A DNA stretch of 64,000 nt, taken from contig NZ_CP006842.1 of assembly GCF_000626675.1 (NCBI RefSeq), positions 682,001 through 746,000 on the forward strand, given 5' to 3'. The stretch is from Corynebacterium glyciniphilum AJ 3170. Lineage in GTDB: Bacteria; Actinomycetota; Actinomycetes; Mycobacteriales; Mycobacteriaceae. This document shows, one piece after another, positions 4,716-31,003 of the stretch; the stretch's first letter is position 1, and each line of letters begins with the position of its first letter. Below the pieces are notes generated by a model. That model saw only the letters and a list, made by a program, of their open reading frames with translations. It did no database searches and had not been told where the DNA came from. Both the position numbers and the translations under genes were made by a program.

Positions 4716-4751
4716 CCACAGCGATGAGCAGGGGCGGGTAGATTCGGTCGC

Positions 4752-13267: not shown

Positions 13268-13280
13268 GCCGGTGCATCAC

Positions 13281-13325
13281 GAGGCGCGGTCCTGCCACCC
13301 CTTCCCGGGGTCGGGGCCGCGCCTC
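13281..13325 (+). terminator. GC-rich hairpin after bS22
   Basis: GAGGCGCGG (13281-13289) pairs with CCGCGCCTC (13317-13325), and an inner CCCC/GGGG stem lies in the loop. Only a short ATT follows, so it is a stable hairpin with a weak U-tract, 14 bp after the stop. Confidence 0.55.
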
Positions 13326-13405
13326 ATTGCTGTGTCCGGGGTGGACCGGAGTGCCACGGGGTGGACGGGGTCCGCGAGGAGAGGGGGAGACTAGGCTCAG
13401 TGGAC

Positions 13406-13687: not shown

Positions 13688-13791
13688 TTGACGGGCCTGC
13701 GAAAGAACTTGTGGTGCCTGGCCCTTAACCGGGGGTCGGTAACAGTGCTCTCCGGTGCTTTTGTTATTGGGGGGCATAAGGGGATACCGTA

Positions 13792-13804
13792 GGTACCTGG
13801 TACC
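13792..13804. promoter_or_regulatory. Doubled GGTACC motif upstream of hemA
   Basis: Two GGTACC palindromes separated by one T (13792-13797 and 13799-13804), about 93 bp before the hemA start, next to a GATACC/TAGGTA sequence that may serve as a -10. It could be a regulator site for the heme operon. No regulator was assigned. Confidence 0.3.
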
Positions 13805-13896
13805 GCATGACGGCGTCGACCACCGGTGGCCGGTGGGCGGAAAACGCCGCAGCGGAAAAAGTAACCACTGACGATTTCGCGGGAGGCTGTGCAGCC

Positions 13897-15378
13897 ATGG
13901 CAGGACTCGGGATCACCGGACCGGCAGCCGTCCTCCTGGTCGGTTTGTCCTTCCGGTCGGCACCTGTGCCAGTTCTCGAGAAGGCCTCCGTCTCTCCGGA
14001 GGAATTGAACAGTCTGGAACGTGACCTCGTCGGTGGCGACTGCGTCACCGAGGCGCTGATCCTCTCCACGTGCAACCGTATGGAGTTCTACGTCGCCACC
14101 TCGGCGTTCCACCCGGCGCTGGATCACGTGGTCGAAACCATCGCCGCGCATGCGCAGATGGACGCGGTCGAGCTCGAGCCCTATCTGTATGTCCGCTATG
14201 CGGATGCAGCCGCGGAGCACATGCTGACCGTCGCCGCCGGACTGGATTCGATGGTCGTAGGTGAACAGCAGGTCATCGGCCAGCTGCGCAATGCGTACAC
14301 CTCCGCGTCCGACAATGGCGTGGTGGGTACGGCGCTGCATGATCTCACGCAGCGTGCTCTCCGCACCGGCAAGCGGGTCCACACGGAGACCAGCGTGGAC
14401 GAGGCAGGTTCCTCCATGGTCAGTTTTGCCTTGGACCATGCCCTGGCCGAGTTGGGTGTACAGGACATGTCGGGCCGTGATGCCGTGGTCATCGGCGCCG
14501 GTGCCATGGCCTCGTTGGCGTCGACCTATCTCGGTCGTTCCGGTGTCCGCCATGTCACGGTGGTGAACCGTACGGTGGGCCGCGCGGAGAACCTCGCCGC
14601 GCACGCCAGGGAGGCAGGCGTCGATGCCCACGCCGTGGGGCTGGATAGTCTGGTGGACGCCCTCAGAGGGGCGGACGTCGTCGTCTCTGCCACAGGTGCC
14701 GTCGGTACGGTGCTGGGCCCGGATGACCTGGCGGCGACACAGCTGGAACGGCCCCGCCGGATGGTTCTGGTTGACCTGTCGATGCCCCGTGACATCGACG
14801 ACGCCGTGGTTGACGTTGCCTCGGGAACCGGCGCGGCCAGCGGCGCTGACGTCCGGCTGCTGAACATCGAAGAGCTCACTGCCCTCGCCGGTGACGGTGC
14901 CCGGGACGAGTCCGCCGCCCGTGACATCGTGGCCACCGAACTGTCCGAATACCTGGAGCAGGTGCGTGTGCAGTCGGTGGTGCCGACGGTGAAGGCGCTG
15001 CGTCGCCGGGCCGCCGACGTCGTCGACGATGAACTCGGCCAGCTGGTCCGACGGACCCCCGGCATGGGCGACGAGGATCGCGCTGAGGTCGCCCGTACCG
15101 TACGCAGGGTGGTGGACAAGCTTCTCCACGCACCGACGGTGCAGGTCAAGAAACTGAGTTCCCAGGACGGGACGGTGAACTACGCCGAAGCGTTGGCGAC
15201 GCTGTTCAATCTGCCGTCCGGGGCAACCTCGGTGGTGTCACAGGCTATTGAGCCCGGTGACGCAGGCAAGGCGCGCATCGGAAATGTTCTGCACCAGGGC
15301 GCAGTGAACCCGCAGGAGTACGTGGAGTTCCCGGACGTGATGTCCGAGGCTCCCGACAGGACAGAGGAGGCATCGTGA
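13897..15378 (+). CDS. hemA: Glutamyl-tRNA reductase
   Basis: First committed enzyme of C5 heme synthesis: reduces glutamyl-tRNA(Glu) to glutamate-1-semialdehyde with NADPH. N-terminal [17 protein letters not shown], catalytic Cys59 in [29 protein letters not shown], the NADPH-binding [15 protein letters not shown] and a C-terminal dimerisation helix. ATG 13897 is chosen with GGGAGG 10 nt upstream, giving 493 residues. The frame is open back to 13807, but that part is not family-like. The stop overlaps the hemC start by four bases. Confidence 0.95.
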
Positions 15379-16364
15379 CCGGTGAGACTGCTGCGCCGCG
15401 GAACCTTCTCGTCGGCACCCGCGCGAGTAACCTCGCACGGACCCAGGCGGGTACGGTCCGTGACGCGCTCACGGACGTTCTACGGGGTATGTTCGCTGAT
15501 GCCGCAGGTGAGGCGGAACTGCATTTCGTGCACACCCCGGGAGATGCGTCCCAGAAGGCGCAGACGCCGGTCAACCGCATCGGGGTCGGTGTGTTCACCG
15601 AAACCCTGCGCAACGCTCTGGCGGCGGGGGAGTGCGACGTTGCAGTACATTCCTTCAAGGACCTGCCCACCGCACCGGACGACAGGTTCATCATGGTCGT
15701 CCCGGCCCGTGTCGACCCTCGGGAGGTGCTCGTGAGCATCGACGGTGCGGCGCTGCGGGATTTGCCGGACGGGGCGAAGATCGGCACCGGTGCGCCGCGA
15801 CGAGTATCCCAGATCCGCGCGTTGCGTCCGGATCTGGAAGTCTGCCCGCTGCGTGGCAACATCGACACCCGGATGGGACGGGTCGCCACGGGCGATCTTG
15901 ATGCCGTCATGCTCGCACGGGCCGGACTCGAACGGGTCGGGGAGATCGACCGGGCATCTGAGACGGTGTCTGTCGAGGACATCCTTCCCGCACCTGCCCA
16001 GGGTGCACTGTGCGTGGAGGTCCGGGCCGATGACGACGAGGCGGTTGCGGCCGTCCTCGGACTGGACGATCCGGTGTCCCATGCGACCGCCGTCGCCGAG
16101 CGTGCCGTCCTCGCCGAATTACAGGCAGGCTGCACGGCGCCTGTCGGTGCATGGTCGACCTATGAGAACGGCACGCTGACTTTACGCGGCGGGGTTTTCG
16201 CCCTCGACGGGTCAAGACAGCTGGTCCGTGAACATTCCGTCGCCCTGGAGATTCCCGAGGGGCCGTGGCTGCACACCGCCGTCGAGCTCGGCCGTGCGGT
16301 CGGTCGCGATCTCATTGACGGCGGCGCCGCCGGAATCATCACCGACATCGTCGGTGCCCGTTGA
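15375..16364 (+). CDS. hemC: Hydroxymethylbilane synthase (porphobilinogen deaminase)
   Basis: Joins four porphobilinogen molecules into hydroxymethylbilane (329 residues). N-terminal [43 protein letters not shown] and [11 protein letters not shown] motifs. The dipyrromethane cofactor Cys lies in [16 protein letters not shown] 15375 overlaps the hemA stop (GTGA), so translation is probably coupled. The cysG/hemD gene follows after 95 bp. Confidence 0.95.
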
Positions 16365-16459
16365 CCTGGTATTGACCGGTCTGTCGCACCGTTTCCCTGC
16401 GGCCCAGCCATGCCCCCAGCCCACCAGCACTGCCTGACCTACCTGAGAAAGTCACCTCG

Positions 16460-18310
16460 ATGACCACTGCCGGAATTGCCCAGACGGGTCCCACGAACAG
16501 TCCACTGACTGGCCGCGGACGCGTCCTGTTCGTCGGCGCCGGCCCCGGAAACCCGGAGCTGCTGACGGTCCGTGCCCGCGAGATCCTCGAAAACACCGCC
16601 CGTGTCTGGGTCGACCCCGCTGTCACCGAGGCCGTCCGCGCCATCATCGCCGATGCCCTGCCAGTCCCGGAGGACAAACGCATCGCCGCCGAGAAGGAGT
16701 GGGAGGCCGAGCTCGAAGCAGCGAAGGCGTCCGGTGCCCGGCGTCGGCCGCGTCGTCCTGCAGAGGTCACCGCTGCCGAGATCGTGTTCGCAGCACCGCA
16801 CACCACTGAAGCCGTCGCCGCCCACGCTGCTGCGGAGGAGGCTGCGCGCGAGGCGGAGACCGGTGGGTACGCCAGCTACCCGGACACACCGGACCCGGAC
16901 GAGATCCGGCCGGTCGAGGCCTCCGCCGTCGCGCACGCGATGGTCGACCACGTCCGACACGGACACAGCGTCGTCCGGCTTGTCGCCGGCAACCCGGTGA
17001 GCAACCCGGCCGTCCTCATGGAACTGCAGGAGGTCGCCGCGCTCGGCGTGGAGTTCGAGGTGGTGCCGGGAATGACCGGCGCCTCGGCCCTCCCCGCCTA
17101 CACCGGTATCGCCACCGGAGACGGTTACACCGCAGTCGATCTGAGGTCGGATGCGACGTCGGAGGTCGACTGGGACGGTATCGCCGCAGCACCGAAGCCG
17201 CTGATCCTCACTGCCGGTCCAGCGGATCTGCCGGTGATCACCGCGGAGCTGAAGCGGCGCGATGTCGCCGGAAGCACACCGGTCACGGTCACCTCGCACG
17301 CCACGACACGTCGACAGCGTTCCTACGACGTCACCCTCGACACGTTGAAGTCGGTTGTCGCGGCGTCGGGGCCGTTGGCCAAAGACGGGGAGATGCCCCA
17401 GGAGCTGGTCGTCACGGTCGGTACCCAGGCCAGCCGGCGCAGCAAGTACTCGTGGTGGGAGAATCGTTCGCTGTACGGGTGGACGGTGCTCGTGCCACGG
17501 GCGAAGGACCAGGCAGGTCCGATGAGTGCCCGGTTGGCCTCTCACGGCGCCATCCCGATCGAGGTTCCCACGATCTCGGTGGAACCACCGAGGAGTCCGG
17601 CGCAGATGGAACGTGCGATCAAGGGGCTTGTCGACGGTCGGTACCACTGGATCGTCTTCACCTCCGTCAATGCGGTGAAGGCAGTGTGGGAGAAACTCGC
17701 CGAGTTCGGGTTGGACGCCCGCGCGTTGGCGGGTGTCCGGGTCGCCGCCGTGGGAGCGAAGACAGCCCAGGCTGTCCGCGATCTCGGAATCACCCCGGAA
17801 CTGCTGCCGAAATCCAATGCCCGCAACGCCTCGGGGCTGGTCGACGTGTTCCCGGCGTACGACCAGGACCTTGATCCGGTCGACCGGGTTCTGCTCCCGC
17901 GTGCCGACATCGCCACGGACACCCTGGTGGACGGCCTCGTCGACCTGGGCTGGTCGGTCGAGGATGTCGTCGCCTACCGCACGGTGCGTGCCGCGCCTCC
18001 CAGCCAGGAGGTCCGCGACATGATCAAGTCCGGTGGCTTCGACGCGGTGTGTTTCACCTCGTCGTCGACGGTGAAGAACCTGGTTGGCATCGCCGGCAAG
18101 CCCCACACCCGCACCATCATCGCCTGCATCGGTCCCATGGCCGCTCAGACGGCGCGTGAGCACGGGCTGCGGGTGGATGTCATGCCTGAGGTCGCCGGTG
18201 TGCCCGAGCTGGTGGATGCCCTGGCGCACCACGTGGCCGAGCTCCGCGCGGCCGGACAGCTGCCGCCGCCGCGCAAGCGCCGGCGTCGGCGCCGTCCCGC
18301 GACGGGGTAG
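16460..18310 (+). CDS. Uroporphyrinogen-III synthase fused to a divergent uroporphyrinogen-III methyltransferase domain
   Basis: A 616-residue two-domain protein. Residues about 15-320 resemble the SUMT/CysG methylase: FVGAGPGNPELLTVRARE is a good SAM-loop, but the usual ADVVLYDRL and GGDPFVFGRGGEE motifs are replaced by ARVWVDPAV and AGNPVSNPAVLMELQ, and an Ala/Glu/Arg-rich insert lies at about 75-145. Residues about 330-600 form the HemD domain (LVPRAKDQAGPMSARLAS, WIVFTSVNAVKAVWEKL, CFTSSSTVKNLVGIAG), which cyclises hydroxymethylbilane to uroporphyrinogen III. The tail is KRRRRRRP. Such fusions are normal in this order. Whether the methylase half is active is doubtful. Confidence 0.9.
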   Translation: MTTAGIAQTGPTNSPLTGRGRVLFVGAGPGNPELLTVRAREILENTARVWVDPAVTEAVRAIIADALPVPEDKRIAAEKEWEAELEAAKASGARRRPRRPAEVTAAEIVFAAPHTTEAVAAHAAAEEAAREAETGGYASYPDTPDPDEIRPVEASAVAHAMVDHVRHGHSVVRLVAGNPVSNPAVLMELQEVAALGVEFEVVPGMTGASALPAYTGIATGDGYTAVDLRSDATSEVDWDGIAAAPKPLILTAGPADLPVITAELKRRDVAGSTPVTVTSHATTRRQRSYDVTLDTLKSVVAASGPLAKDGEMPQELVVTVGTQASRRSKYSWWENRSLYGWTVLVPRAKDQAGPMSARLASHGAIPIEVPTISVEPPRSPAQMERAIKGLVDGRYHWIVFTSVNAVKAVWEKLAEFGLDARALAGVRVAAVGAKTAQAVRDLGITPELLPKSNARNASGLVDVFPAYDQDLDPVDRVLLPRADIATDTLVDGLVDLGWSVEDVVAYRTVRAAPPSQEVRDMIKSGGFDAVCFTSSSTVKNLVGIAGKPHTRTIIACIGPMAAQTAREHGLRVDVMPEVAGVPELVDALAHHVAELRAAGQLPPPRKRRRRRRPATG

Positions 18311-18373
18311 TAGGACGGACCAGGGGTGTGCCGGGCTGATCCCGTCCGCCTGCCCCGGCGTACCATCAGCACC

Positions 18374-19378
18374 ATGACTGATGATGTGCACCTCGTCCGC
18401 CGACCCCGCCGCCTCCGCACCACCCCGGCGATGCGTAATTTCGTCGCCGAGACCCACCTGGAGCCCAACCAGCTGGTCCTGCCGATGTTCATTGCCGACG
18501 GTATCGACAGCGCGCGTGACATCTCCGCGATGCCGGGAGTCCAGCAGCATACCGAGGAGTCCCTGCTGCGTACCGCAGAGGAGGCACTCACGGCCGGAGT
18601 CGGTTCGGTCGATCTCTTCGGTGTCCCCACCCCCGAATCGAAGGACGCCACCGGCTCCCAGGCATGGGCCGTAGACGGTGTCCTCAACCGGGGGTTGTCG
18701 GCACTGCGTCGCGAATTCGGCGATGACCTGATTGTCATGGCAGACACCTGTCTCGACGAGTTCACCGACCACGGTCACTGTGGCGTCCTCACTGAAGACC
18801 GTTTCGGTACGACCGTCATCGACAATGATGCGACCCTTCCGCTCTACGCACGGATGGCGGTCGCACAGGCCGAGGCCGGGGCGCACGTGGTCAGCCCGTC
18901 CGGGATGATGGACGGCCAGATCGCCGTGATCCGCCGAGCCCTGGACGACGCCGGTTTCCAGGACGTGTCGATTCTGGCGTACTCCGCCAAATACGCCGGC
19001 GCCTTCTACGGCCCCTTCCGGGAAGCGGTCGGTTCGTCGTTGCAGGGGGACCGCAAGACCTACCAGCAGGACCCGCGCAATGCCCGTGAGTCACTCATGG
19101 AGGTCGATCTCGACATCGCCGAGGGGGCGGACATGGTGATGGTCAAACCTGCCATGCCCCACCTCGATATCCTGCGCCAGGTCGCCGACATCTCCACCGT
19201 GCCGGTCGCCGCCTATCAGGTGTCGGGCGAGTACTCCATGATCACCGCCGCGGCACAGAACGGGTGGATCGACCGTGAAGCGGCGATCATGGACTCGTTG
19301 ACCGGTATCCGGCGTGCCGGTGCGGACATCATCCTGACCTACTGGGCCACGGAAGCAGCCCACCTCCTGCGCGGCTGA
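18374..19378 (+). CDS. hemB: Delta-aminolevulinic acid dehydratase (porphobilinogen synthase)
   Basis: Condenses two 5-aminolevulinate molecules to porphobilinogen (334 residues). Motifs: [20 protein letters not shown], the metal/substrate region [16 protein letters not shown], the Schiff-base Lys in [20 protein letters not shown], and [15 protein letters not shown] with [16 protein letters not shown] 18374 has TACCAT (18361-18366) 7 nt upstream, predicting an additional leaderless promoter inside the heme cluster. Confidence 0.96.
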
Positions 19379-19406
19379 GGCCAGGTTGACTAAGCTGGTC
19401 GACGAT

Positions 19407-20078
19407 ATGACACAGCAGACTTCACCGACACCGCCGAAGGTCGGACGTCCGGACGGACTGGCTCCGTCGTCCAAGAACGCGCCCGAGAATGTCCGTGACG
19501 GCGTCCGTGCCTGGTACCTCGTCGGAGCAGTGCAGGCGCTGACGGCCGTCCTGCAGCTGGTGATGAACCTGCAGGACCCGCGCGCGCTGACGAGCCAGGT
19601 GCGCGAGCAGATGAACTCTGTCTCGTTACCTGACGGAGTTTCCGAGGACACCCTGGTGACCGGCACGGCGATCCTGAACCTCCTGTTCAATCTCGTGGCG
19701 GTGGCTCTGTGCATGTACCTGACGCGACGGGTCTCCCGGGGCGGCGTGCGGAGTCGCCTCTTCCTGTGCGTCGGGTCGGTCTACCTGGCGCTCATGGCGC
19801 TGCTGCAGGTGTTCTCCAGCCCACCGGATGCCGGTGCCACTCCATTGGTTCTGCTGGTCGGTGCGGGCACGATCATCTCCGGAGTCATCGCCGTGGTCGG
19901 TATCTGGCTGATCACCCGGCCAGACAACGCCGACTGGTTCGGTCTTCCGGACAAGGCCGAGATCGAGGCCTACGCCGAGAAGATGGCGAAGCGTAGTGAA
20001 GAACTCGACAAGGAACGCGCCGAGAAGAAGAAGCGCAAGGCCCGTGAGGCCGAGGAGAAAAAGAACAGGGGACGTTGA
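19407..20078 (+). CDS. Membrane protein of the heme cluster with charged C-terminal coil
   Basis: About 223 residues with four predicted membrane segments (roughly residues 32-52, 85-107, 115-135, 142-165). A cytoplasmic tail of about 50 residues is rich in Lys/Glu (EAYAEKMAKRSEELDKERA, ending EKKNRGR) and probably forms a coiled coil. ATG 19407 follows TAAGCT by 10 nt; a TTG at 19386 is in frame but less likely. It sits between hemB and another membrane protein with a 3-bp gap, so it is probably co-transcribed. No known family function. Confidence 0.75.
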   Translation: MTQQTSPTPPKVGRPDGLAPSSKNAPENVRDGVRAWYLVGAVQALTAVLQLVMNLQDPRALTSQVREQMNSVSLPDGVSEDTLVTGTAILNLLFNLVAVALCMYLTRRVSRGGVRSRLFLCVGSVYLALMALLQVFSSPPDAGATPLVLLVGAGTIISGVIAVVGIWLITRPDNADWFGLPDKAEIEAYAEKMAKRSEELDKERAEKKKRKAREAEEKKNRGR

Positions 20079-20081
20079 GCC

Positions 20082-20582
20082 GTGCCCACCATGTTCCCGG
20101 TCTCCCACAACTCCGATCCCGGAGACCGTAACCGTGCGATCAGGTACTGGAAGCCCGGGGACGGGACACCCGGGGTGGTGAAGACAGCGGTGGTGCTGTT
20201 CCTCATCGCGGCCATTGGTCTGTTGGCCAGTGGCGCGATGATGTGGACGGCCCACCGTCCGGTCGTTGAAGATGCTGACCACATGGCCTATATCGAGACG
20301 CTGTCCTCGAATATGAGGTGGGTGGGTTCGGTACAGGTCATCGCGGCCGTGGTGATCGCCCTGCTGATTCCCGGTCTGGTGCGCGGCAACGGCCGTCGGC
20401 GCCGTTGGCTGATGATCGCGACGGCGGTCGTGATGGGCTTCACCCTCGTCGGCTGGGTCTTCAACGTCGGGGGGCTGGAGCAGCCGCTGCTGGCACTGGC
20501 CATGGCGCTTGGTGCGCTGGCGATGTACCGCCCTGCTGTACGGACGTTCTTCGGGGAGACCCCCTCAGAGCTGGAGGGCTGA
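20082..20582 (+). CDS. Small four-helix membrane protein of the heme cluster
   Basis: 166 residues, GTG start 20082, with four hydrophobic segments (about residues 28-51, 75-95, 104-124, 132-152). Only 3 bp separate it from the preceding gene and from the P-type-ATPase-like gene after it, so the three form one translational unit. I do not recognise a family function. The constant linkage suggests it may work with the ATPase-like protein. Confidence 0.75.
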   Translation: MPTMFPVSHNSDPGDRNRAIRYWKPGDGTPGVVKTAVVLFLIAAIGLLASGAMMWTAHRPVVEDADHMAYIETLSSNMRWVGSVQVIAAVVIALLIPGLVRGNGRRRRWLMIATAVVMGFTLVGWVFNVGGLEQPLLALAMALGALAMYRPAVRTFFGETPSELEG

Positions 20583-20585
20583 CCT

Positions 20586-23360
20586 GTGGAAGCATCGGGA
20601 CGCACGGCACCGGGCCCGGGAGAACACAAAGCGGCCGTCGTACCGGAGGACCCCACGCACGGCGTCGGAGAAGAAGAACCCTCGGATGCGGTGACCCGCG
20701 CTATCGCTGATGCTCGTCGGGCCGCCCGCGCTGCGGGGCTCACTGCTGATGATGATGACTCCGACGACGGGCCCGAGCAGAGGGGGAGGGGTGGAGCCCG
20801 CCTGACATCCTTCACCTTCCACCTGGGCGACCTGGGCTCGGCGGCACATGCCGGCAAAGTTGAGGCGGCACTCAACCTCCTCCCCGGAGTGCAGGCGCGC
20901 GTGGTGTACTCCACGTCCATGGCATGGGTGACCGCGCCGGAGTCCCTCCAGCCGGATGTCCTCCGTGACGTCATGACCGATGCCGGGGTCGATTCCTGGT
21001 TGACCGTGGCCTCGTTGCGACGACGGGCCGAACGGCTCGCTCGTGCACGTCCGACCAGTGTCAACGCGCACCTGCACCGCGAGAACCGCGACCGGACTCC
21101 TCGCTCCGGTGGTTCCTTCCACCAGCTCGGCCAGCGACGTCGGCGTCAGACCGGCGGTACTGAGGTGCTGTACACCGCGCGCAACCTGATTACGGGGGCA
21201 CGCCTGCTCGTCGCGGTGCTGTTCGGCCTTCCGGTTGTTGTCCTGCAACTCTTCCCCGAGTGGCAGTTCGACTACTGGCAGTGGATCTGTCTGGCCATGT
21301 CCACACCCGTCGTGCTGTGGTGTGCCTGGCCGTTCCACCGGGCGATGCTCGGCGGACTGCGACGGGGGATGCCGGCCCTCGACGCCGCTTCTTCAGCGGC
21401 GATCCTGTTGGCCTACCTCTATTCCATGGCAGAGCTGCTCACCAGTTCGACCGGTGACCTCGGGTGGCGTTCCGGCAACATCCTCATCTCCTGGGGGTAC
21501 CAGACCGATGCGGTGTTCTTCGACGTCGCCTGCGGCTGCACCATTCTCCTGTTGTTCGGGCGACTGGCGTCCCGACGGACCCGCCTGCGATCACTCCTGG
21601 CGCTGAACATGTTGTCCGTCGAACGGGCCGGTGACGTCACTGTGGTGCGCAAGTCGCGGTACGGAAAGCCTGTAAAGCAGATGATCCCGTCGACGGAGGT
21701 CCGGGTCGGGGACGACGTGATCGTCGGCGTCGGAAGCGTGATCCCCTGTGACGGTGAGGTTGTCGGCGGCCGGTCGACCGTCGAGGCAGGGCCCTTCACC
21801 GGTGGGCGGGGAGAAACCGCTGTCGAAGTGGGCGCCAGCGTGTATGCGGGATCCCGGAACACCGGTGGACAGCTGAAGGTCCGGGTGAACAGGACGGGAT
21901 CGCGGACCAGGATCGCTGCAGTGCGACGCTGGATCGCGGCCGCCGAACGTGAGGAGAACCGACTGGAGCAACTGGCGACCCGCACCGCGTCACTGCTGGT
22001 GCCGTGGGCGGTGGCCATTGCGGCCATTGCAGCGGTGGGCTGGTTGACCATCGCGGAAAGTGTCACCGCGGCAGTCGCCACGGCTCTCACCGTCCTGGTT
22101 TCTGTCGCTCCCGTGGCCCTTGCCCTGTCCACCACGCTCGCCCTCCGCCTCGGTCTGGCTCGCGCCGCCTCGAGCGGGATGCTGTTGCGTGACACCGGTA
22201 CCGTCCACCGTCTCGCGGCGGTCGACACCATCATCTTCAACCGTGCCGGGACGTTGACGACCGGCCCGATGAACGTGGTCGGGGTCACCGCTGCCAAGGG
22301 AGAGGTCGCCGAACTGGTGCTCCGGGTGGCGGGTGCACTGAGTCTCGAGAGCCCGCACGGCGTGTCGCGGGCGATTGTCCGGGCGGACCGCGAGTCCCGC
22401 GACAGTGGTGCCGGAGGAGACAAAGTCCCGCACTGGCTGGAGGCCGGCCCGGTCGAAGTCGACCCCAGGGGCGTCTTCACCGCCACGGTCGATCTCCCTG
22501 TCACTGATCCGGGGACCGGGGAGCAGACGGTCCGGCCTGTCCAGGCAGAACTGTGGCGCCCCCGTGATCTCTCGGAACTCGGCGACCCGACCCTGGCCAA
22601 CGCTGTCCTCAGCGGTGGGGCTCCTCTCGTCGTCAGCTGGAGGGGGAAGGCACGGGGCGTCATCAATGTCGCGGACAGCATCAAACCCGATGCGGAGTCC
22701 TCCGTGCACTGGCTGGAGGACGCCGGTGTGGAAACGTACATGCTCTCGCGGGACACTTATCCCGTCGCACGTCGCATGGCGGACTCGATCGGGATCTCCA
22801 AGGTGCTCGCCGGCATCATCCCCGCGCGGAAGGCGGCGACCGTGCGTAGCGTGCATGCCCAGGGGGCCACCGTCGCGATGGTCGGCGACCAGGACGTCCT
22901 GGACTGCCTTGATGTCGCTGACGTCGGAATTCTGATGGGGTCGGCGGACAGGCTGGATAATCTGGGCGGTGACCACGGCCAGGCGAGGGGGCTCGATTCC
23001 GCCGCCAGCGATGTCGTGATCATCAGGGAAGATGTTGCTGTCGTGGCGGAATCAGTGAATCTCGCCCGCCATGTTCGCGCCACGGTCGACTGGAACCTCT
23101 GGCTTGCCTGGGGATACAACATCATTGCCCTCGTCCTCGCCGTGTCGGGGTTCCTCAATCCACTCCTGGCGACCGCTCTGATGCTGGGGTCGTCTCTGCT
23201 GATCGAATGGCGGTCCGCACGCATCAGTCACCGTGACTACAGCATCGGTGATCCCCTCGGACGTGAGGGAGCCGATGTCTCCGGGAGCCGGTCTGATACC
23301 CGGCTCGGGAGACTGCGTGCCTGGGCCGGTGAGAACCTCAGTCCCTGGCAGTCGCGGTGA
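20586..23360 (+). CDS. P-type-ATPase-like protein lacking all catalytic motifs (pseudoenzyme)
   Basis: An intact 924-residue frame with the layout of heavy-metal P1B ATPases: charged N-terminus, HMA-like domain (about 72-145), membrane helices, actuator, phosphorylation/nucleotide domain and two last helices. Key residues are gone. The HMA CxxC is replaced (LGDLGSAAH). The actuator TGE reads T405-G406-G407. The membrane CPC reads A508-P509-V510. The phosphorylation motif DKTGT reads N552-R-A-G-T, losing the essential Asp. HP reads HG (SPHGVSRAI). GDGxND reads G767-D-Q-D-V-L. The frame has normal codon use and no stop or frameshift, so it appears maintained. It cannot run a normal E1-E2 cycle; a structural, binding or regulatory role tied to heme synthesis is inference. 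Confidence 0.85.
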   Translation: MEASGRTAPGPGEHKAAVVPEDPTHGVGEEEPSDAVTRAIADARRAARAAGLTADDDDSDDGPEQRGRGGARLTSFTFHLGDLGSAAHAGKVEAALNLLPGVQARVVYSTSMAWVTAPESLQPDVLRDVMTDAGVDSWLTVASLRRRAERLARARPTSVNAHLHRENRDRTPRSGGSFHQLGQRRRRQTGGTEVLYTARNLITGARLLVAVLFGLPVVVLQLFPEWQFDYWQWICLAMSTPVVLWCAWPFHRAMLGGLRRGMPALDAASSAAILLAYLYSMAELLTSSTGDLGWRSGNILISWGYQTDAVFFDVACGCTILLLFGRLASRRTRLRSLLALNMLSVERAGDVTVVRKSRYGKPVKQMIPSTEVRVGDDVIVGVGSVIPCDGEVVGGRSTVEAGPFTGGRGETAVEVGASVYAGSRNTGGQLKVRVNRTGSRTRIAAVRRWIAAAEREENRLEQLATRTASLLVPWAVAIAAIAAVGWLTIAESVTAAVATALTVLVSVAPVALALSTTLALRLGLARAASSGMLLRDTGTVHRLAAVDTIIFNRAGTLTTGPMNVVGVTAAKGEVAELVLRVAGALSLESPHGVSRAIVRADRESRDSGAGGDKVPHWLEAGPVEVDPRGVFTATVDLPVTDPGTGEQTVRPVQAELWRPRDLSELGDPTLANAVLSGGAPLVVSWRGKARGVINVADSIKPDAESSVHWLEDAGVETYMLSRDTYPVARRMADSIGISKVLAGIIPARKAATVRSVHAQGATVAMVGDQDVLDCLDVADVGILMGSADRLDNLGGDHGQARGLDSAASDVVIIREDVAVVAESVNLARHVRATVDWNLWLAWGYNIIALVLAVSGFLNPLLATALMLGSSLLIEWRSARISHRDYSIGDPLGREGADVSGSRSDTRLGRLRAWAGENLSPWQSR

Positions 23361-23534
23361 GACCGTGAAACCGGTGCCGTCAGGAGTCAGTTGGCACTGA
23401 ATCGGGCCGGGACGAACGCTCCGGGTACGCCCCCCGACCATCACTGCTGAAGCAGCCGTTCACCCGGGCACCTGCTCCTGCAGGCCGGTCATTATGCTGG
23501 GGGCAGTTGGATAAGCGATCTGAAGGAGTGGCAG

Positions 23535-24833
23535 ATGAGTGGACGGACGAACAGCTCGGCGGCGATGGACCGGGCGAGGGGGGTCACGCCCGGCGGGGTG
23601 AACTCGCCTGTACGCGCATTCGGCTCGGTCGGGGGGACTGCACCGTTCATTGCCTCTGCGGCGGGGTCGAGGCTCACCGACATCGACGGAAACGACTATG
23701 TCGACCTGATCTGTTCCTGGGGGCCGATGCTCCACGGCAACGCCCATCCCGCAGTGGTCGAGGCAGTCTGTGAGGCGGCCGGAAAGGGACTGTCCTTCGG
23801 TGCGCCGACCCTTGCCGAGACGGAGTTGGCACAGGAGATCATCGACCGCACCAGCGTGGAACGGGTGCGGTTGGTGAACTCCGGTACAGAAGCAACGATG
23901 TCAGCGGTCCGACTCGCCCGCGGGTTCACCGGCAGGGACAAGATCCTGAAGTTCAACGGGTGTTACCACGGGCACGTGGACTCTCTGTTGGTTGCCGCGG
24001 GGTCCGGTGTCGCGACGCTGGGGCTGCCCGATTCGCCGGGGATCACCGCGTCTGCCGCTGCTGAAACGATCGTCGTGGACTACAACGACCTTGACGCTGT
24101 CCGCGCCGCGTTCGCTGACAACCCCGGTCAGATCGCCGCGGTCATCGCAGAGGCGAGTGCGGGCAACATGGGCACGGTGCACCCGCAGGACGGGTTCAAC
24201 GCCGCCGTGAAGGAGATCGCCCACGCTGACGGTGCGCTGCTGATCCTCGACGAGGTCATGACCGGTTTCCGCACCTCACGTTCCGGATGGTTCGGGGTGG
24301 ACGGTGTCGCCGGTGACCTGACGACGTTCGGCAAGGTCGTGTCCGGCGGGATGCCGGCCGCTGCCTTCGGTGGGCGGGCCGAGATCATGGATATGCTCGC
24401 GCCGGAAGGGCCGGTCTACCAGGCGGGGACACTGTCGGGAAATCCGGTCGCGACGGCGTCGGGACTGGCGTCGCTGCGTCTGGCGGACGAGTCAACCTAC
24501 ACCACGTTGCAGAGCAATGCCGACCGGCTGTCTTCGCTGATCAGTGAGGCATTGTCGCGGGAAGGCGTGGCACATCACATGCAGCGGGCCACCACGATGC
24601 TGTCGATCCGGTTCGCCGAAGGTCAGGGACACAACTTCGCTGAGATGCAGGCGGCGGATACATTCCGCTATGCACCGTTCTTCCACGCCCTGCTGGATAA
24701 CGGGGTGTTCGCACCGCCGAGCGTCTTCGAGACCTGGTTCGTGTCGACTGCCTTGACCGATGATGACTTCGGGCGCATCGAGACGGCTCTGGCTGCGGCC
24801 GCGAAGGCGGCTGCAGCGGCGACGGCAGTGTAG
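23535..24833 (+). CDS. hemL: Glutamate-1-semialdehyde 2,1-aminomutase
   Basis: PLP/PMP enzyme converting glutamate-1-semialdehyde to 5-aminolevulinate, the step between HemA and HemB (432 residues). N-terminal [51 protein letters not shown], the [12 protein letters not shown]sp, and the PLP Lys267 in [21 protein letters not shown] 23535 has GAAGGAG upstream. It is separated from the ATPase-like gene by 174 bp; hemE and hemY, often placed here in corynebacteria, are absent. Confidence 0.96.
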
Positions 24834-24857
24834 GCAGGGCAGCCAGCCTCCCAGCGC

Positions 24858-25898
24858 CTAGGAGGAGAGCGCTTCCTGGATCATCGGAACATAGCGCTCC
24901 AGAGTCCAGGGGACGGTGAGAGGGTTGATCATCGACGACGCCGTCACGAAGGACTGGTCGGTGGGGGCGACCTCGGCACCGTCGCGTATTGCGGTGACGT
25001 TGCCGTAGACCGGGTTGTCGTGCATCTCCCGACGGTTCGCGTCGTCGGAGTAGAAGGTGAAGATCAGGTCGACGTCATTGAGTCGGTCTGCGTCCTCGAG
25101 GCTGAACTGGGCGGAATCGGTGCCGACGACCTCGTCGTCTTTCATCTCCTCCACGACGGGCGCTGTCTGCAGGCCCAGGTTGGCGACCATCGCCGCACGT
25201 TGCTCGGTGGGGAGGAACACGCCCATGTTCTGGGCGGGTCCCTGATTGTAGATGAACGCGAAATCATGGTCGGCGAAGTCAGGGTGTTCATCACGGACAG
25301 CGGCGAAATCGTCCTCGATGCCGTTGATGAGATCCTCGGCGCGGTCAGGTTCGCCGAGCGCGGTGGCGATGGTGGTGATCTGGTCTTCCCAGTCGATGGT
25401 CCAGGGGTGTTCGGGGTACGCGACGGTGGGGGCGACCTCGCTGATCTGGTCATACTGGTCCTGGGTCAGGCCGGACCACGGGGCCAGGACCAGGTCGGGG
25501 TCCAGCGCCGCGATTTCCTCGGCGCTGACCTCCTCGCCTCCGGTGATGAGTTCGGGGAGCTCCCCGCCCTCCTCCTCGACTGCTTCACGGACCCAGGGGA
25601 GCTGGCCCGAATCATCGGCTCCCCACTCGTAACTCTCGGTGCCGACCGGGGTGACCCCGAGTGCGATGGCAGTTTCAGCGGATCCCTGCCCCAAGGTGAC
25701 GACGCGTTCGGGTTTCGAGGTGATCTCGGCCTCGCCGAGTGCGTGGGTGATGGTCGTCGGCGTGAAGTCGTCGTCCTGGTTGTCCTGGGCGGTGGTGTCC
25801 GAACTGGAGGAACAGGCGACGAGGAGTGTGGCGGTGAGGCAGGATGCTGCAACGGCGGCCAGTGTACGGTTCTCCGGGCGTCGGAGGATGAAAGTCAT
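24858..25898 (-). CDS. Iron-siderophore/heme-type ABC transporter substrate-binding lipoprotein
   Basis: 346 residues. Signal peptide with lipobox LLVAC and lipidated Cys29, followed by a Ser/Asp linker and a class III periplasmic-binding (FepB/FecB, TroA-like) fold: PERVVTLGQGSAETAIALGVTPVG, AALDPDLVLAPWSGLTQDQYDQI, and ADRLNDVDLIFTFYSDD. Such proteins deliver Fe3+-siderophore or heme to an ABC permease, but no permease or ATPase gene is adjacent. ATG 25898 lies 6 nt after a TAGCCT box (reverse strand, 25905-25910), and a DtxR-like palindrome overlaps that box, suggesting iron repression. It converges on hemL with a 24-bp gap. Confidence 0.88.
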   Translation of the reverse strand: MTFILRRPENRTLAAVAASCLTATLLVACSSSSDTTAQDNQDDDFTPTTITHALGEAEITSKPERVVTLGQGSAETAIALGVTPVGTESYEWGADDSGQLPWVREAVEEEGGELPELITGGEEVSAEEIAALDPDLVLAPWSGLTQDQYDQISEVAPTVAYPEHPWTIDWEDQITTIATALGEPDRAEDLINGIEDDFAAVRDEHPDFADHDFAFIYNQGPAQNMGVFLPTEQRAAMVANLGLQTAPVVEEMKDDEVVGTDSAQFSLEDADRLNDVDLIFTFYSDDANRREMHDNPVYGNVTAIRDGAEVAPTDQSFVTASSMINPLTVPWTLERYVPMIQEALSS

Positions 25899-25902
25899 GA
25901 GG

Positions 25903-25921
25903 GTAGGCTAGCATAGCTGCT
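25903..25921. promoter_or_regulatory. Candidate DtxR iron box overlapping the -10 of the binding-lipoprotein gene
   Basis: The 19-bp sequence GTAGGCTAGCATAGCTGCT keeps 11 of 19 positions of the DtxR consensus TTAGGTTAGSCTAACCTAA, including the core TAGG-TAGC-TA. It covers the TAGCCT -10 box of the reverse-strand gene. Position and target (iron-type lipoprotein) fit repression by iron-loaded DtxR; the match itself is only moderate. Confidence 0.45.
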
Positions 25922-26004
25922 AATGGTGACTGGCGTTCACCTCATCGTGGGCGGGGAGTCGTTCACTTATGAGCTGAGCACCATGCCAGGTAGTGTCAGA
26001 CACC

Positions 26005-26610
26005 ATGACAACGATCGTCCACCTCGTCCGGCACGGGGAGGTTCACAACCCCGACCGCATCCTCTACGGTCGCCTGCCCGACTGGCACCTCAGCGTCCGC
26101 GGCCGTCAGATGGCAGCCGCGATTGCCGCTGACCTGTCCGATCATGACGTCACCTACGTCGTCTCCTCACCGCTGGAGCGTGCCCGCGAAACTGTGGCAC
26201 CGCTGGCGGAGGCGCTCGGAGTCGCCCCGCAGGTGGACGATGACCTCCTTGAGGCGGGGAACGATCTGGAAGGGCTGCACATCAAGGGCGTGCGTTCAGC
26301 TCTGTGGAACCCGAAGCGGTGGCCGATGCTGACGAACCCCACCGTCCCGAGCTGGGGCGAGCCGTACACCGAGATTCTCGACCGCATGTGGCGTGCGGTC
26401 GACCGTGCCCGCCGGGGGGCTGAGGGTGGTGAAGCGGTGTGTGTGACCCATCAGCTTCCCATCGTCTGCGTTCAGCGGGACGTCCAGGGGCTGCCGCTGA
26501 GACACAACCCGGCTGCGCGTCGGTGCGAACTCGCGTCGGTGACCTCCCTGGTCTTCGAGGGCAACGACCTCGTCGACATGGTCTATTCGGAGCCTGCACA
26601 GGAGATCTGA
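26005..26610 (+). CDS. Histidine phosphatase family protein (Rv0525-like)
   Basis: 201 residues of the phosphoglycerate-mutase-like superfamily. N-terminal catalytic motif VHLVRHGEVHNPDRILYGRLPDWHLS, VVSSPLERARETVAP, a catalytic-acid region, and second His in VCVTHQLPIVCV. Substrate is unknown; it is distinct from gpmA at 5468. ATG 26005 has TAGTGT (25991-25996) 8 nt upstream, a leaderless pattern. It leads the cytochrome c maturation genes, four bp before the thioredoxin-like gene, as in mycobacteria. Confidence 0.88.
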   Translation: MTTIVHLVRHGEVHNPDRILYGRLPDWHLSVRGRQMAAAIAADLSDHDVTYVVSSPLERARETVAPLAEALGVAPQVDDDLLEAGNDLEGLHIKGVRSALWNPKRWPMLTNPTVPSWGEPYTEILDRMWRAVDRARRGAEGGEAVCVTHQLPIVCVQRDVQGLPLRHNPAARRCELASVTSLVFEGNDLVDMVYSEPAQEI

Positions 26611-26614
26611 TTCC

Positions 26615-27235
26615 GTGATGAACGTGAAACAGCAGGGACGACGGGTGACTGCCGTTGTGATCGCCGCGTCGTTGGCATTGGCCGTGTCCGCCTGTGGCGA
26701 GGACAACACGGCTGGGACAGATGCCGTGGCGAGTGGCGGTACCTTCGAATTCGTCTCCCCGGGCGGCCAGACGGAGATCACCTACGACGAAGGCGACCGC
26801 GAACCGGTGGGCGACCTCCAGGGTGAATCACTGATGGAGCCGGAGGAGATGATCACCCTCGAGGACTACAAGGACCAGGTGGTCGTCCTGAATTCCTGGG
26901 GACAGTGGTGCGGCCCGTGCCGTAGCGAAGCTGACGATCTGCAGCGGGTCCAGGAGAAGTTCGAGGACGACGGCCGTGGAACCATCCTCGGCATCAATGT
27001 GCGTGACTCCGTGGCGGACAAGGCCCGCGACTTCGTCACGGACAACGGGATCACGTACCCCTCCATCTACGACCCGCCGTTCAAGTCCGCGCTCGCGCTG
27101 GGTGGCTTGCCGGCGTCGGTCATCCCGACGACCATCGTGCTGGACAAACAGCACCGTCCTGCGAAGGTCTTCCTCCGCGAGATCAACGACGACGAGCTGT
27201 GGGCGGCCGTTGAGCCGTTGCTGAACGATGAGTGA
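26615..27235 (+). CDS. TlpA/ResA-like thioredoxin lipoprotein for cytochrome c maturation
   Basis: 206 residues with a lipoprotein signal (VSAC, Cys27) and an extracytoplasmic thioredoxin domain: VVLNSWGQWCGPCRSEADDL carries the redox pair Cys99/Cys102, and GLPASVIPTTIVLDK carries the cis-Pro. It probably keeps apocytochrome c heme-binding cysteines reduced, receiving electrons from the CcdA-like protein encoded next. AGGAG at 26600-26604 favours GTG 26615; ATG 26618 differs by one residue. The 3' end overlaps ccdA by 8 bp. Confidence 0.9.
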   Translation: MMNVKQQGRRVTAVVIAASLALAVSACGEDNTAGTDAVASGGTFEFVSPGGQTEITYDEGDREPVGDLQGESLMEPEEMITLEDYKDQVVVLNSWGQWCGPCRSEADDLQRVQEKFEDDGRGTILGINVRDSVADKARDFVTDNGITYPSIYDPPFKSALALGGLPASVIPTTIVLDKQHRPAKVFLREINDDELWAAVEPLLNDE

Positions 27236-28016
27236 TCTCGGAACCGCGTTCTCCGAGGCGGTGACCACCGGCCCGATTCTGCTGGCCCTGGCGGCCGCCG
27301 CGGTCGCGGGTCTGGTCTCTTTCGCCTCGCCCTGTGTGATTCCGCTGGTTCCGGGCTATGTCTCCTATCTCGCGGGAGTCGTCGGTGCGGATACCGAGTA
27401 CACCAGGGAAGGCACGGTGGTGACCGGTCGCCGGGGGCGGGCCGGTGGCGCGGCTCTGCTGTTCGTGGCCGGTTTCACCGTGGTCTTCGTCCTCGCCACC
27501 GCGACTGTTTTCGGTGCGATCAGTGCATTGATGATCAACCAGGAAACACTCATGCGCGTCGGTGGTGTGGTGACGATCATCATGGGCATCGTGTTCATGG
27601 GGTTCATCCGCCCGTTGCAGAACGACACCCGCATGGCGCCGAAGCGGTGGTCCACCCTCGCCGGTGCACCACTGCTCGGGGGGGTGTTCGCCCTGGGCTG
27701 GACACCCTGCCTGGGCCCGACCCTCGCCGCGATCATCTCCGTGTCCGCCGGCACGGAAGGTATGACCGCCGCGCGCGGTGTCATTCTCATCATTTCCTAC
27801 TGCCTGGGCCTGGGACTACCGTTCATACTTGTTGCCCTGGGCTCTGCCAAAGCGCTCCGGGGAGTCGGCTGGCTGCGGAAACACTCCCGCACTATCCAGC
27901 TCATCGGCGGTGCGCTGCTGATCATCGTCGGCATTCTGCTGGTCTCCGGCCAGTGGGCCCTGTTCGTCGACTGGATCCGTCAGGGTCTGGTCTCCGACAC
28001 CACGCTGCCGATCTAG
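27228..28016 (+). CDS. ccdA: CcdA-type transmembrane thiol-disulfide electron carrier
   Basis: 262 residues with six membrane segments and the two family cysteines, in SFASPCVIPLVPGYVSYL and LGWTPCLGPTLAAI. It moves reducing equivalents from cytoplasmic thioredoxin to the extracytoplasmic TlpA-like protein (Rv0527/CcsA of mycobacteria). ATG 27228 overlaps the end of the TlpA-like gene (ATGAGTGA), a translational-coupling arrangement. resB follows 33 bp later. Confidence 0.93.
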   Translation: MSDLGTAFSEAVTTGPILLALAAAAVAGLVSFASPCVIPLVPGYVSYLAGVVGADTEYTREGTVVTGRRGRAGGAALLFVAGFTVVFVLATATVFGAISALMINQETLMRVGGVVTIIMGIVFMGFIRPLQNDTRMAPKRWSTLAGAPLLGGVFALGWTPCLGPTLAAIISVSAGTEGMTAARGVILIISYCLGLGLPFILVALGSAKALRGVGWLRKHSRTIQLIGGALLIIVGILLVSGQWALFVDWIRQGLVSDTTLPI

Positions 28017-28049
28017 GCTTCAACCGAGTTCCTCTCCCGAAAGGTTTCC

Positions 28050-29789
28050 ATGATCCGCTGGTTCCTGCGTCTACCGAAACGGGCCTGGCAGTGGCTGACC
28101 CGTATGCGGACGGCACTGGTCCTGCTGTTCCTCCTCGCTCTCGGTGCTGTTCCCGGTGCACTGCTGCCGCAGCGTTCCTTGAACGCCGGCAATGTCACCG
28201 AGTTCATCGAGAACAACGGTCGGATCGGTGAGATCTACGACAAGCTCGGACTGTTCGACGTCTTCAGCTCGCCGTGGTTCGCGGCGATCTACGTTCTGCT
28301 CTTCCTGTCACTGATCGGCTGCATCCTGCCGCGCAGTTGGGATCACTACAAGGCACTGCGGACCCGTCCGCCGTCGGCGCCGAAACGTCTGACCCGGATG
28401 CCGAACTTCGTGGAAGGTACGGTCGAGGCACCGGCCGAGGAGGTCCAGAACCAGGTCACCCGGCGTTTCCGCAAGTGGCGTGGCGGGGCTACCGAAGCCG
28501 CGGACGACCGGGCGGGGAAGTGGTCGTTCGCTGCGGAGCGGGGCTACCTCCGCGAGGCGTCCAACCTGGTGTTCCACTTGTCGCTGGTCGGAATTCTGGT
28601 CGCGGTGATGGCGGGACGACTGGTGTACTACGAAGGCCAGGTCATTGTGATTGCGGGGACGGATTCCGCCAGCTCTGAGTTCTGCAACTCTGCCGTCGCC
28701 AACTTCGACTCGATGCGTCACGGCCCACTCTTCGACGGCACCACCCTGACCCCGTTCTGCGTGAATGTGAAGAACTTCGAGGCGGAGTACCTGCCGTCCG
28801 GTCAAGCGACGAGCTTCTCCTCGGATATCGACTACGCCGAGGGAGAGGATGCGATGCTGCCCACGGATGAGTGGGACAAGACTCAGCTTCGGGTCAACCA
28901 CCCGCTCAACGTGGACGGCGATCTGGTGTACCTCCAGGGGCACGGATATGCGCCGACTTTCACCGTTACCTGGCCGGACGGGGAGACCCGTACCGAGACT
29001 ATCCAGTTCCGTCCGGACGACCTGACATACTTCCTCTCGTCTGGCGCGATCAAGATGGACCCGCCGGCCGGCATGTACGAGGATCTCTATGACCGACGCC
29101 AGAATCAGCTGGCGATCCAGGGACTCTTCGCTCCCACCGCAGAGTTCTCGGGTGAGAACGATTCCCTGCTGACGTCGAGTTACCCGGCGATGAACGATCC
29201 GGCCGTCGCCATCGACATCTACCGGGGTGACACCGGACTGGATGCCGGGACCGGGCAAGACATCTTCTCCCTGGATTCCACGCAGCTGCACAGTGGTGCG
29301 CTGCAGAAACTGGACCGGGTCAACCTCATGGAAGGGGAGTCCGTCACCCTGGACGATGGTACAGAGATCAGCTTCGATGGGGCTGAAGAGTTCGTTAACC
29401 TGCAGGTCAGTCGAGACCCGACGACCTCGTTCGTCTTGGGTTTCGCTCTGCTGATGCTGATTAGCCTGGTCGGATCTCTGACCATCAAGCGCCGCCGCTT
29501 CTGGGTGCGTGTCACCGATAATGGCGACGGTACCTCCCACCTGCAGATTGCCGGGCTGGCGAGGACCGATTCCGCCGGCTGGGGCCGTGAGTTCAACCGG
29601 ATCGCCGAGGAGCTTCTCCACCTCGATGAGGAGGAGCTTGATGAAGAGTTTGAGCAGACCGACGGCGAATGGGAAGACTGGGAAGATGAGCTCGAGCGTG
29701 AGCTCCACAGGGAGGTGACTTCCGGCGAACTCGCAGATACGTCCGGTGAAGACCCGGATTCGGAACAAGACCGTCCTGAGGAATGCTAA
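28050..29789 (+). CDS. resB: Cytochrome c biogenesis protein ResB
   Basis: 579 residues. Membrane segments near residues 20-40 (RTALVLLFLLALGAVPGALLP), 75-95, 170-190, and 465-485 bracket a large extracytoplasmic domain; the C-terminus is strongly acidic. With CcsB it forms the system II heme lyase, exporting heme and attaching it to apocytochrome c. NVTEFIENNGRIGEIYDKLGLFDVFSSPWF is a ResB signature stretch. Same operon as ccdA and ccsB. Confidence 0.94.
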   Translation: MIRWFLRLPKRAWQWLTRMRTALVLLFLLALGAVPGALLPQRSLNAGNVTEFIENNGRIGEIYDKLGLFDVFSSPWFAAIYVLLFLSLIGCILPRSWDHYKALRTRPPSAPKRLTRMPNFVEGTVEAPAEEVQNQVTRRFRKWRGGATEAADDRAGKWSFAAERGYLREASNLVFHLSLVGILVAVMAGRLVYYEGQVIVIAGTDSASSEFCNSAVANFDSMRHGPLFDGTTLTPFCVNVKNFEAEYLPSGQATSFSSDIDYAEGEDAMLPTDEWDKTQLRVNHPLNVDGDLVYLQGHGYAPTFTVTWPDGETRTETIQFRPDDLTYFLSSGAIKMDPPAGMYEDLYDRRQNQLAIQGLFAPTAEFSGENDSLLTSSYPAMNDPAVAIDIYRGDTGLDAGTGQDIFSLDSTQLHSGALQKLDRVNLMEGESVTLDDGTEISFDGAEEFVNLQVSRDPTTSFVLGFALLMLISLVGSLTIKRRRFWVRVTDNGDGTSHLQIAGLARTDSAGWGREFNRIAEELLHLDEEELDEEFEQTDGEWEDWEDELERELHREVTSGELADTSGEDPDSEQDRPEEC

Positions 29790-29877
29790 AGACCAGCTCA
29801 CTTTTGGTTTCCACTCCAGGTGAGCAGTAACGTGGACCGAGTTACGGTCCAGTCATAATCGACGGAGGAACTGACGG

Positions 29878-31002
29878 ATGGATATCCACGACGTCAATGA
29901 GGGGCTGGCGGATTTTTCTGACCTGGCCTACATCACCACTGTGGCGTTGTACCTGCTGGCGCTCGCAGTCTCCCTGGTGTTCTACGGGATGTATCGGTCT
30001 GCCACGGAAACCCGTCGCGAGCGCGCCCGTATCCTCGGTGAGAACAAGGCCGGACGTGACAAGGAGAAGGTGTCCGTCGCCGCAGGATCTGGGCGAGCCG
30101 ACGGTGCTGTAGACAGTGACACGGTCGACAGAGATGCTCTTGATGGCGGTAGCCACGATGTCTCGGGTATCGCCACGGGCTCCCTGGCAGAAAAGGACCT
30201 GCCGAAGAACTTCCAGGTCGATGCACTGCGTGAGAAGTTCCGTCGGACGGACCGGTGGGGCGGCATGGCGCAGGCCGTGATCTGGCTCGGCGTGGCCATG
30301 CACATCCTGTTTGTGGTCGTCCGTGGACTTGCTGCGAACCGATTCCCGTGGGGGAACCTGTTCGAGTACGTCTCCGTGGTTTCAGGCGTGGCGATGGTTA
30401 TCGCCTGCTACGTCCTGCGCCGCAAGGCTATGCGCGTACTGTGGCCGTGGATCCTCACCCCGATCGTTCTTCTGCTGTTCTACGCGGGTACGGAACTCTA
30501 CGCCGACGTGGCTCCGGTCGTCCCGTCGCTGAATTCCTACTGGTTCGTCATCCACGTTTCGGTGGTGTCGATCGGTGGTGGCATCGGCCTTGTCTCCGGC
30601 ATGGCGTCACTGCTCTATGTGCTGCGAAGGGCTCAGCCACGTGGACAGGAAAAGGGGTTCTTCGGGGTGCTGGCCACTCCGTTGCCAGATGCCTCCAAAC
30701 TGGATGCCCTGGCCTACCGGGCAGCGATCTGGACACTCCCGATCTTCGGGCTCGGCGTGATCTTCGGCGCTATCTGGGCTCACGCCGCCTGGGGCCGCTT
30801 CTGGGGCTGGGACCCCAAGGAAACCGTCTCCCTGATCACCTGGATTCTCTACGCTGCCTACCTGCATGCCCGGGCAACACCGGGGATGCGCGGCAAGCCC
30901 GCTGCCTGGATCAATGTCCTGGCTTTCGCCACGATGGTCTTCAACCTCTTCTTCATCAATATCGTCATCTCGGGTCTGCACTCCTACGCCGGACTGAACT
31001 GA
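29878..31002 (+). CDS. ccsB: Cytochrome c biogenesis protein CcsB (heme handling)
   Basis: 374 residues with about eight membrane segments. The heme-binding WWD-type motif reads AWGRFWGWDPKETVSLITW, and a conserved His lies in the FVIHVSVVSIG segment. It works with ResB as cytochrome c synthetase for the bcc complex. An N-terminal hydrophilic region of about 60 residues (50-110) between helices 1 and 2 is longer than in the core family. GACGGAGGAACTGACGG precedes ATG 29878. The stop is 1 bp before the rmlB start. Confidence 0.95.
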   Translation: MDIHDVNEGLADFSDLAYITTVALYLLALAVSLVFYGMYRSATETRRERARILGENKAGRDKEKVSVAAGSGRADGAVDSDTVDRDALDGGSHDVSGIATGSLAEKDLPKNFQVDALREKFRRTDRWGGMAQAVIWLGVAMHILFVVVRGLAANRFPWGNLFEYVSVVSGVAMVIACYVLRRKAMRVLWPWILTPIVLLLFYAGTELYADVAPVVPSLNSYWFVIHVSVVSIGGGIGLVSGMASLLYVLRRAQPRGQEKGFFGVLATPLPDASKLDALAYRAAIWTLPIFGLGVIFGAIWAHAAWGRFWGWDPKETVSLITWILYAAYLHARATPGMRGKPAAWINVLAFATMVFNLFFINIVISGLHSYAGLN

Positions 31003-31003
31003 T

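Follow-up and report, generated by a model that had tools for sequence, protein, structure and literature searches.

A putative P1B-type pseudo-ATPase conserved beside hemB in Corynebacterium

Introduction

What defines a P-type ATPase is a single aspartate that becomes phosphorylated. In Corynebacterium glyciniphilum AJ 3170, a gene for a protein with the layout of a P1B-type ATPase lies between hemB and hemL and carries asparagine in place of that aspartate, which raises the question of what such a protein is kept for, and why there. The gene was noted in a preliminary description of a 64,000 nucleotide stretch of the chromosome (the window), which proposed a maintained pseudoenzyme that might bind or hold a porphyrin intermediate, a metal or an enzyme of heme synthesis at the membrane, with two small membrane proteins as its likely partners. 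Pseudoenzymes as such are familiar, and the Plasmodium guanylyl cyclase beta is reported to carry a degenerate P4 domain (PMC6592433). That domain is eukaryotic, of the P4 type and fused to a cyclase, whereas the protein described here is bacterial, of the P1B type and stands alone. Among the matches listed in open-access main texts, we found no description of a stand-alone bacterial P1B pseudo-ATPase family, and no article in these texts named P-type ATPases together with pseudoenzymes, or both with Corynebacterium. A search of the same kind for NCgl0417-NCgl0420 returned no mention, and for cg0512-cg0515 only three articles on human DNA methylation. A family of this kind, kept across most of a genus, is apparently undescribed, as far as the literature was searched.

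Results

Reading frame and surroundings

Re-translation gave an uninterrupted frame from the GTG at 20586 to the stop at 23360, as first described, and the features of the locus are collected in Table 1. The gaps between mp1 and mp2 and between mp2 and the pseudo-ATPase gene are both 3 bp. Promoter-like sites were not found between 18000 and 26000 (0 against 0.6 expected), terminator-like sites in the same interval numbered 3, against 2.8 expected by chance, and Rfam gave no match in 13000-32000. Further downstream in the window, profile matches identified a gene resembling trx/resA and a ccsB gene, and we read two further downstream genes as ccdA-like and resB-like.

Table 1. Features of the pseudo-ATPase locus, in positions of the window
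Feature	Positions	Strand	Basis
hemB (ALAD)	18326..19378	+	Pfam ALAD 8.9e-136, synteny
mp1, small membrane protein, four hydrophobic segments, without family match	19386..20078	+	
mp2, small membrane protein, four hydrophobic segments, without family match	20082..20582	+	
P1B-type pseudo-ATPase, 924 aa	20586..23360	+	ORF, Pfam and profile matches
HMA-like N-terminal region without CxxC, residues 73-140	20802..21005	+	alignment with active relatives
D313-V-A-C316: acid at the exit site (LpCopA E189), followed by the new invariant Cys	21522..21533	+	
TGG at TGE site, residues 405-407	21798..21806	+	
APV at CPC site, residues 508-510	22107..22115	+	
NRAGT at DKTGT site, residues 552-556	22239..22253	+	
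HG at HP site, residues 591-592	22356..22361	+	
SRD at TGD site, residues 721-723; Arg722 new, invariant	22746..22754	+	
GDQDVL at GDGxND site, residues 767-772	22884..22901	+	
Y844-N845, kept Cu-site membrane residues (LpCopA Y688, N689)	23115..23120	+	
hemL, next gene downstream of pseudo-ATPase	23535..24833	+	TIGR00713 2.9e-167

Two other features of the region were recorded. The hemD frame (16460-18310, forward strand) looks fused, one part resembling a uroporphyrinogen-III methyltransferase and the other being a uroporphyrinogen-III synthase. On the reverse strand, at 24858-25898, a gene resembling an iron-siderophore ABC-type substrate-binding protein (PRK10957, 2.7e-22, below the cut-off) runs against the operon, with hemL on one side and a phosphoglycerate-mutase-like gene on the other, and was matched at this place in the loci of some relatives only.

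Fold and domain organization

The P1B-ATPase layout was borne out by Pfam (E1-E2_ATPase 7.2e-34, Hydrolase 4.4e-9) and by profile matches to solved copper pumps, residues ~206-878 matching LpCopA (3rfu, 4.5e-84) and AfCopA (3j09) also being matched. The E1-E2_ATPase and HAD hydrolase domains were found, in order, in all 39 family members tested, so that by descent and fold the protein belongs to the P-type ATPases. HMA was absent from the Pfam matches of these 39 (E up to 1; first 25 of 26 families listed). The HMA-like region gave a weak collinear match to 3j09, and alignment with active relatives confirmed that its CxxC is missing: both cysteines are present in 94 of 100 active relatives and are replaced by Ser, Asp, Asn or others in the pseudo-ATPase. 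The protein scores 127.1 bits against TIGR01494 ('HAD-IC family P-type ATPase'), above the cut-off of 62.3, and falls below the cut-off of TIGR01525. It is therefore an annotation trap, exceeding the TIGR01494 cut-off despite the Asn at its catalytic site.

Ahead of the HMA-like region, residues 1-72 (20586-20801) include a helix-like stretch in which Ala 43, 46 and 47 are each kept by at least 97% of the family. This stretch is a possible docking element.

The remodelled catalytic site

Orthologues were aligned from 107 genomes, that of the window included; one row stops short of the catalytic site, leaving 106 there. The motif readings of the preliminary description (NRAGT, TGG, APV, HG and GDQDVL) were reproduced on re-translation, and Asn552 was found in 106/106 orthologues, none having a restored DKTGT. 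Arg553, Arg722 and Asp723 were likewise each present in 106/106, Arg722 standing where active pumps have the Gly of TGD. Asn552, Arg553, Arg722 and Cys316 occurred without exception in the 74 sequences with less than 80% identity. In an overlapping set of ORFs, Asn was found at the catalytic position in 129/129 (112 genomes, 17 of them represented twice); the two sets together cover the catalytic site in 119 of the 157 genomes with an orthologue-grade match.

The claim that every motif is changed needs qualification. The signature sites are indeed altered, but several residues of the pump persist: Asp723, Lys749 (105/106), Gly767 (105/105), Asp768 (95/105) and Thr556 (94/106). Similarly, the change of HP to HG is real in this protein but local, with the family keeping His in 101 and Pro in 79 of 107 rows. 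Elsewhere the departure is general. Glu is found in column 407, that of the Glu of TGE, in only 6/107 rows, and the second Asp of GDGxND is replaced in the family. The nucleotide-site columns 586 (Glu in 100/100 active relatives), 628 and 630 (G-x-G), presumably equivalent to E1064, G1099 and G1101 of ATP7B, are lost in the pseudo-ATPase. The 100 active relatives were selected for DKTGT together with CPC or CPH, and counts in those columns are conditional on that choice.

Of the 767 well-filled columns of the family alignment 53 are invariant, those of the altered site included, which places it with the best-conserved parts of the protein, and the invariance of the replaced residues implies that the site is in use in its altered form. 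The change of Asp, Lys and Gly to Asn, Arg and Arg beside Lys749 leaves a more basic site, which could hold an anion. With no phosphorylatable Asp, and with TGE and GDGxND changed, the protein does not have the sequence of a working P-type ATPase.

The copper path and Cys316

The pseudo-ATPase shares with the P1B-1 Cu(I) ATPases (LpCopA, AfCopA and ATP7B, 7xuk) the fold, the A, P and N domains, the YN in M5 and the MxxSS in M6. It differs from them in the exchange of Asp for Asn and Lys for Arg, and in the loss of TGE and GDGxND, of the cysteines of CPC and HMA, and of the copper-entry residues. On LpCopA numbering, the copper-entry residues M148, E205 and D337 and the CPC cysteines C382 and C384 are all replaced. 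The M148 site is Leu in 107/107, the E205 site mostly Ser or Thr and the D337 site mostly Thr, and the first Cys of CPC is Ala (92) or Gly (14) in 106/106.

Residue 313, at the position of the exit-site acid E189, is acidic throughout (Asp in 100 and Glu in 7 of 107), and the nearby Cys316 is present in 107/107 orthologues and in 0/100 active relatives. Tyr844 (105/105), Asn845 (104/105), Met866 (LpCopA M717; Met in 102/107 rows) and Ser870 (LpCopA S721; Ser in 93/107 rows) are mostly kept.

Because the Asp-Lys pair, TGE, the second Asp of GDGxND, the ATP contacts and the copper path have been lost together, ATP-driven copper transport is very unlikely, and the protein presumably no longer pumps.

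Distribution, selection and history

An orthologue-grade match was found in 157/201 Corynebacterium genomes, that of the window included, leaving 44 without. These figures start from 47 genomes whose matches were all weaker than 1e-150, a tally made by eye. When the 47 and three borderline genomes were searched with a profile, the family was recovered in 3/47 and in all three borderline genomes. The three recovered were G047, G077, where the gene is split over frames, and G114, where it is broken by a contig end. At least two of the 44 genomes without the gene (G091 and G130) are incomplete assemblies. The split orthologue of G077, a 77%-complete genome, lies at and around 3501-5027 of its locus (L161) and reflects either recent decay or an assembly error.

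The median dN/dS of the gene was 0.081 (range 0.025-0.240) over 18 hand-picked close pairs, compared with 0.051 for hemB (18 pairs), 0.042 for hemL (12), 0.126 for mp1 (10) and 0.185 for mp2 (7). The gene is under strong purifying selection. Relaxed decay was not seen, dN/dS being low and the replaced residues invariant, and a sequencing error was ruled out, as genomes at 96, 89 and 97% identity carry identical residues.

In a tree built without the catalytic columns, a branch with an SH-aLRT of 100 separated 27 family members from 56 active relatives; the program gave a warning that long branches met in it. All 84 relatives from outside Corynebacterium that were inspected among the matches listed (59 from the best 80 of one search and 25 from a single-protein search of 101 genomes) keep DKTGT, one of them additionally carrying a chance motif on the opposite strand. 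NRxGT was found in 21/21 Corynebacterium loci among the best 80 matches, a group that overlaps the genus set. On a HemB and HemD tree of 125 rows (105 with the gene and 20 without, sampling 20 of the 44 genomes that lack it), the pattern of presence and absence required five changes, four of them forced by starred branches. The tree by itself is blind to direction; losses are likelier than gains given the single clade and the single locus. Judged from its sequence, the pseudo-ATPase is a maintained, non-catalytic protein descended from a Cu(I)-type P1B-ATPase; it had a single origin and has stayed next to hemB in Corynebacterium.

The hemB neighbourhood

In 99/100 relatives' loci hemB precedes the pseudo-ATPase gene in the same orientation, the exception (L046) showing none in the fetched 4 kb, and the linkage spans sequences down to ~40% identity. 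With the gap measured to the nearest possible start, an upstream ORF ended near a possible start in 96/107 loci, and within 10 bp or overlapping in 59/107.

All 50 genomes searched for hemB, namely the 44 without the pseudo-ATPase gene and six with it, have hemB. In 20 loci without the gene hemB was present, and the family profile gave a single match, of 12.7 bits, to an ORF at the position of mp1. In 10 of these 20 loci, a homologue of mp1, mp2 or both lies behind hemB, and the idea of a dedicated pairing of these two proteins with the pseudo-ATPase is weakened by this. ORFs read by eye as hemE and hemY were seen in seven of nine of these loci whose ORFs were inspected; of the other two, L148 was obscured and L156 has hemL directly behind the mp1 region. 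In several relatives without the pseudo-ATPase, the hemE-like and hemY-like ORFs lie between mp2 and hemL. In the genome of the window, hemE is at 1722899-1723975 of the contig, ~1 Mb from the hem operon, so the heme cluster is not fixed.

Co-occurrence was examined in 48 hand-picked genomes, with kinship between genomes ignored. Presence of the gene had no clear link to CydA (5/20 genomes lacking the gene, 13/28 holding it) or to HtaA (9/20 and 11/28).

Discussion

The observation made on the single protein holds, and is stronger than first stated. That it is a maintained pseudoenzyme is strongly supported by the invariant Asn, the low dN/dS, the single clade and the conserved adjacency to hemB, and it is an old, selected pseudoenzyme that is dispensable for heme synthesis. 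The interpretation first offered is, as a whole, partly supported, its suggestion of mp1 and mp2 as partners being the part that has lost ground.

It is the position of the gene that suggests a role in heme metabolism. The linkage to hemB points to tetrapyrrole synthesis, and the presence of hemB in the 44 genomes without the gene points to regulation rather than to an essential step. We tentatively favour a non-pumping membrane scaffold or regulator of tetrapyrrole synthesis. The pump cycle and the copper path would have been abandoned and the whole fold kept as a membrane-embedded body, whose cytoplasmic head may engage a partner, for example HemB or HemA. The basic pocket of Arg553, Arg722 and Lys749 might bind an anion, whether phosphate, nucleotide or the carboxylates of a porphyrin, and the effect on tetrapyrrole synthesis would be regulatory and not essential. 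HemX of Bacillus and Staphylococcus, whose fold we take to be different, offers a likeness of role and not of ancestry, being a non-enzyme membrane protein encoded in a heme operon; the pseudo-ATPase, too, is a membrane protein encoded with heme genes. HemX of S. aureus lowers the amount of HemA (GtrR) protein with its transcript unaltered, and heme regulation in Corynebacterium is described through HrrSA, ChrSA and DtxR, in the portion of the source available to us (PMC10991733). Against a heme regulator, the adjacency to hemB may have been inherited without a heme function, homologues of mp1 and mp2 exist where the gene is missing, hemE lies apart from the cluster in this genome, and presence of the gene has no clear link to HtaA or CydA. 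A more specific possibility, for which we have less confidence, is that a copper pump was converted a single time into a non-catalytic membrane receptor, in which the Asn-Arg-Arg pocket and the Cys316 membrane site might read a tetrapyrrole, a metal or a nucleotide and so set heme synthesis across Corynebacterium.

The main rival places the function in the outer half of the membrane, where Asp313, Cys316, Tyr844, Asn845, Met866 and Ser870 would let the protein receive or chaperone a metal ion or heme without pumping it. Asp313 and Cys316 are one helix turn apart, and such a site could sense copper or heme, or hand either on for cytochrome assembly. The new, invariant Cys316, the constant acid at 313 and the retained copper-site residues all fit, as do the downstream genes resembling trx/resA, ccdA and resB, together with ccsB. 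In C. glutamicum copper induces the genes from hemL to ccsB, which agrees loosely with this reading, but the copper table, in the part of that source available, spans cg0518 to cg0524 and includes no gene of the hemB-hemY stretch (PMC3140484). The cysteines of CPC and HMA and the three copper-entry residues are also gone, and retention of the Tyr, Asn, Met and Ser is perhaps only structural. We consider this reading unlikely, though it is the alternative to be taken most seriously.

Ranking just behind it, and likewise doubtful, is a role unrelated to heme. The protein would then be a subunit, structural or regulatory, of some other membrane complex, such as that of an active P1B-ATPase or of the envelope, and would lie in the hemB transcription unit by chance. 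Position is the only feature that the gene and heme synthesis have in common: the heme synthesis genes persist where the pseudo-ATPase is missing, and in this genome the pseudo-ATPase stayed when hemE left the cluster. Active P1B-ATPases that could be partners coexist in the genome, which has six E1-E2 domains in all. The persistence of the hemB linkage in almost every locus and across such divergent sequences argues against this.

A passive, ATP-independent carrier or channel for a tetrapyrrole or an ion is improbable; the membrane part is conserved and a number of its polar and aromatic residues never vary, but the residues of the entry path are replaced. An ATPase active by unusual chemistry, with another phosphoacceptor, is more improbable again, for while Asp723, Lys749, Asp768 and His591 are largely kept, the acceptor is Asn, and TGE, the second Asp of GDGxND and the nucleotide-site Glu and G-x-G columns are lost. 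A decaying pseudogene is scarcely credible given the selection on the gene and its invariant replacements, even with the split copy in G077 and 18 listed matches in the genus that span one or two stops (part of them examined singly), and the six of 107 translations with one stop each have it at the C-terminal end (four) or before the likely start (two).

If the reading as a receptor of heme synthesis is true, this would be the first family of stand-alone P-type ATPase pseudoenzymes to be described in bacteria. Retention of the whole fold, with Asn fixed across most of the genus, indicates that such a fold is able to persist for a task other than pumping, and the adjacency to hemB suggests an extra layer of heme control in Corynebacterium.
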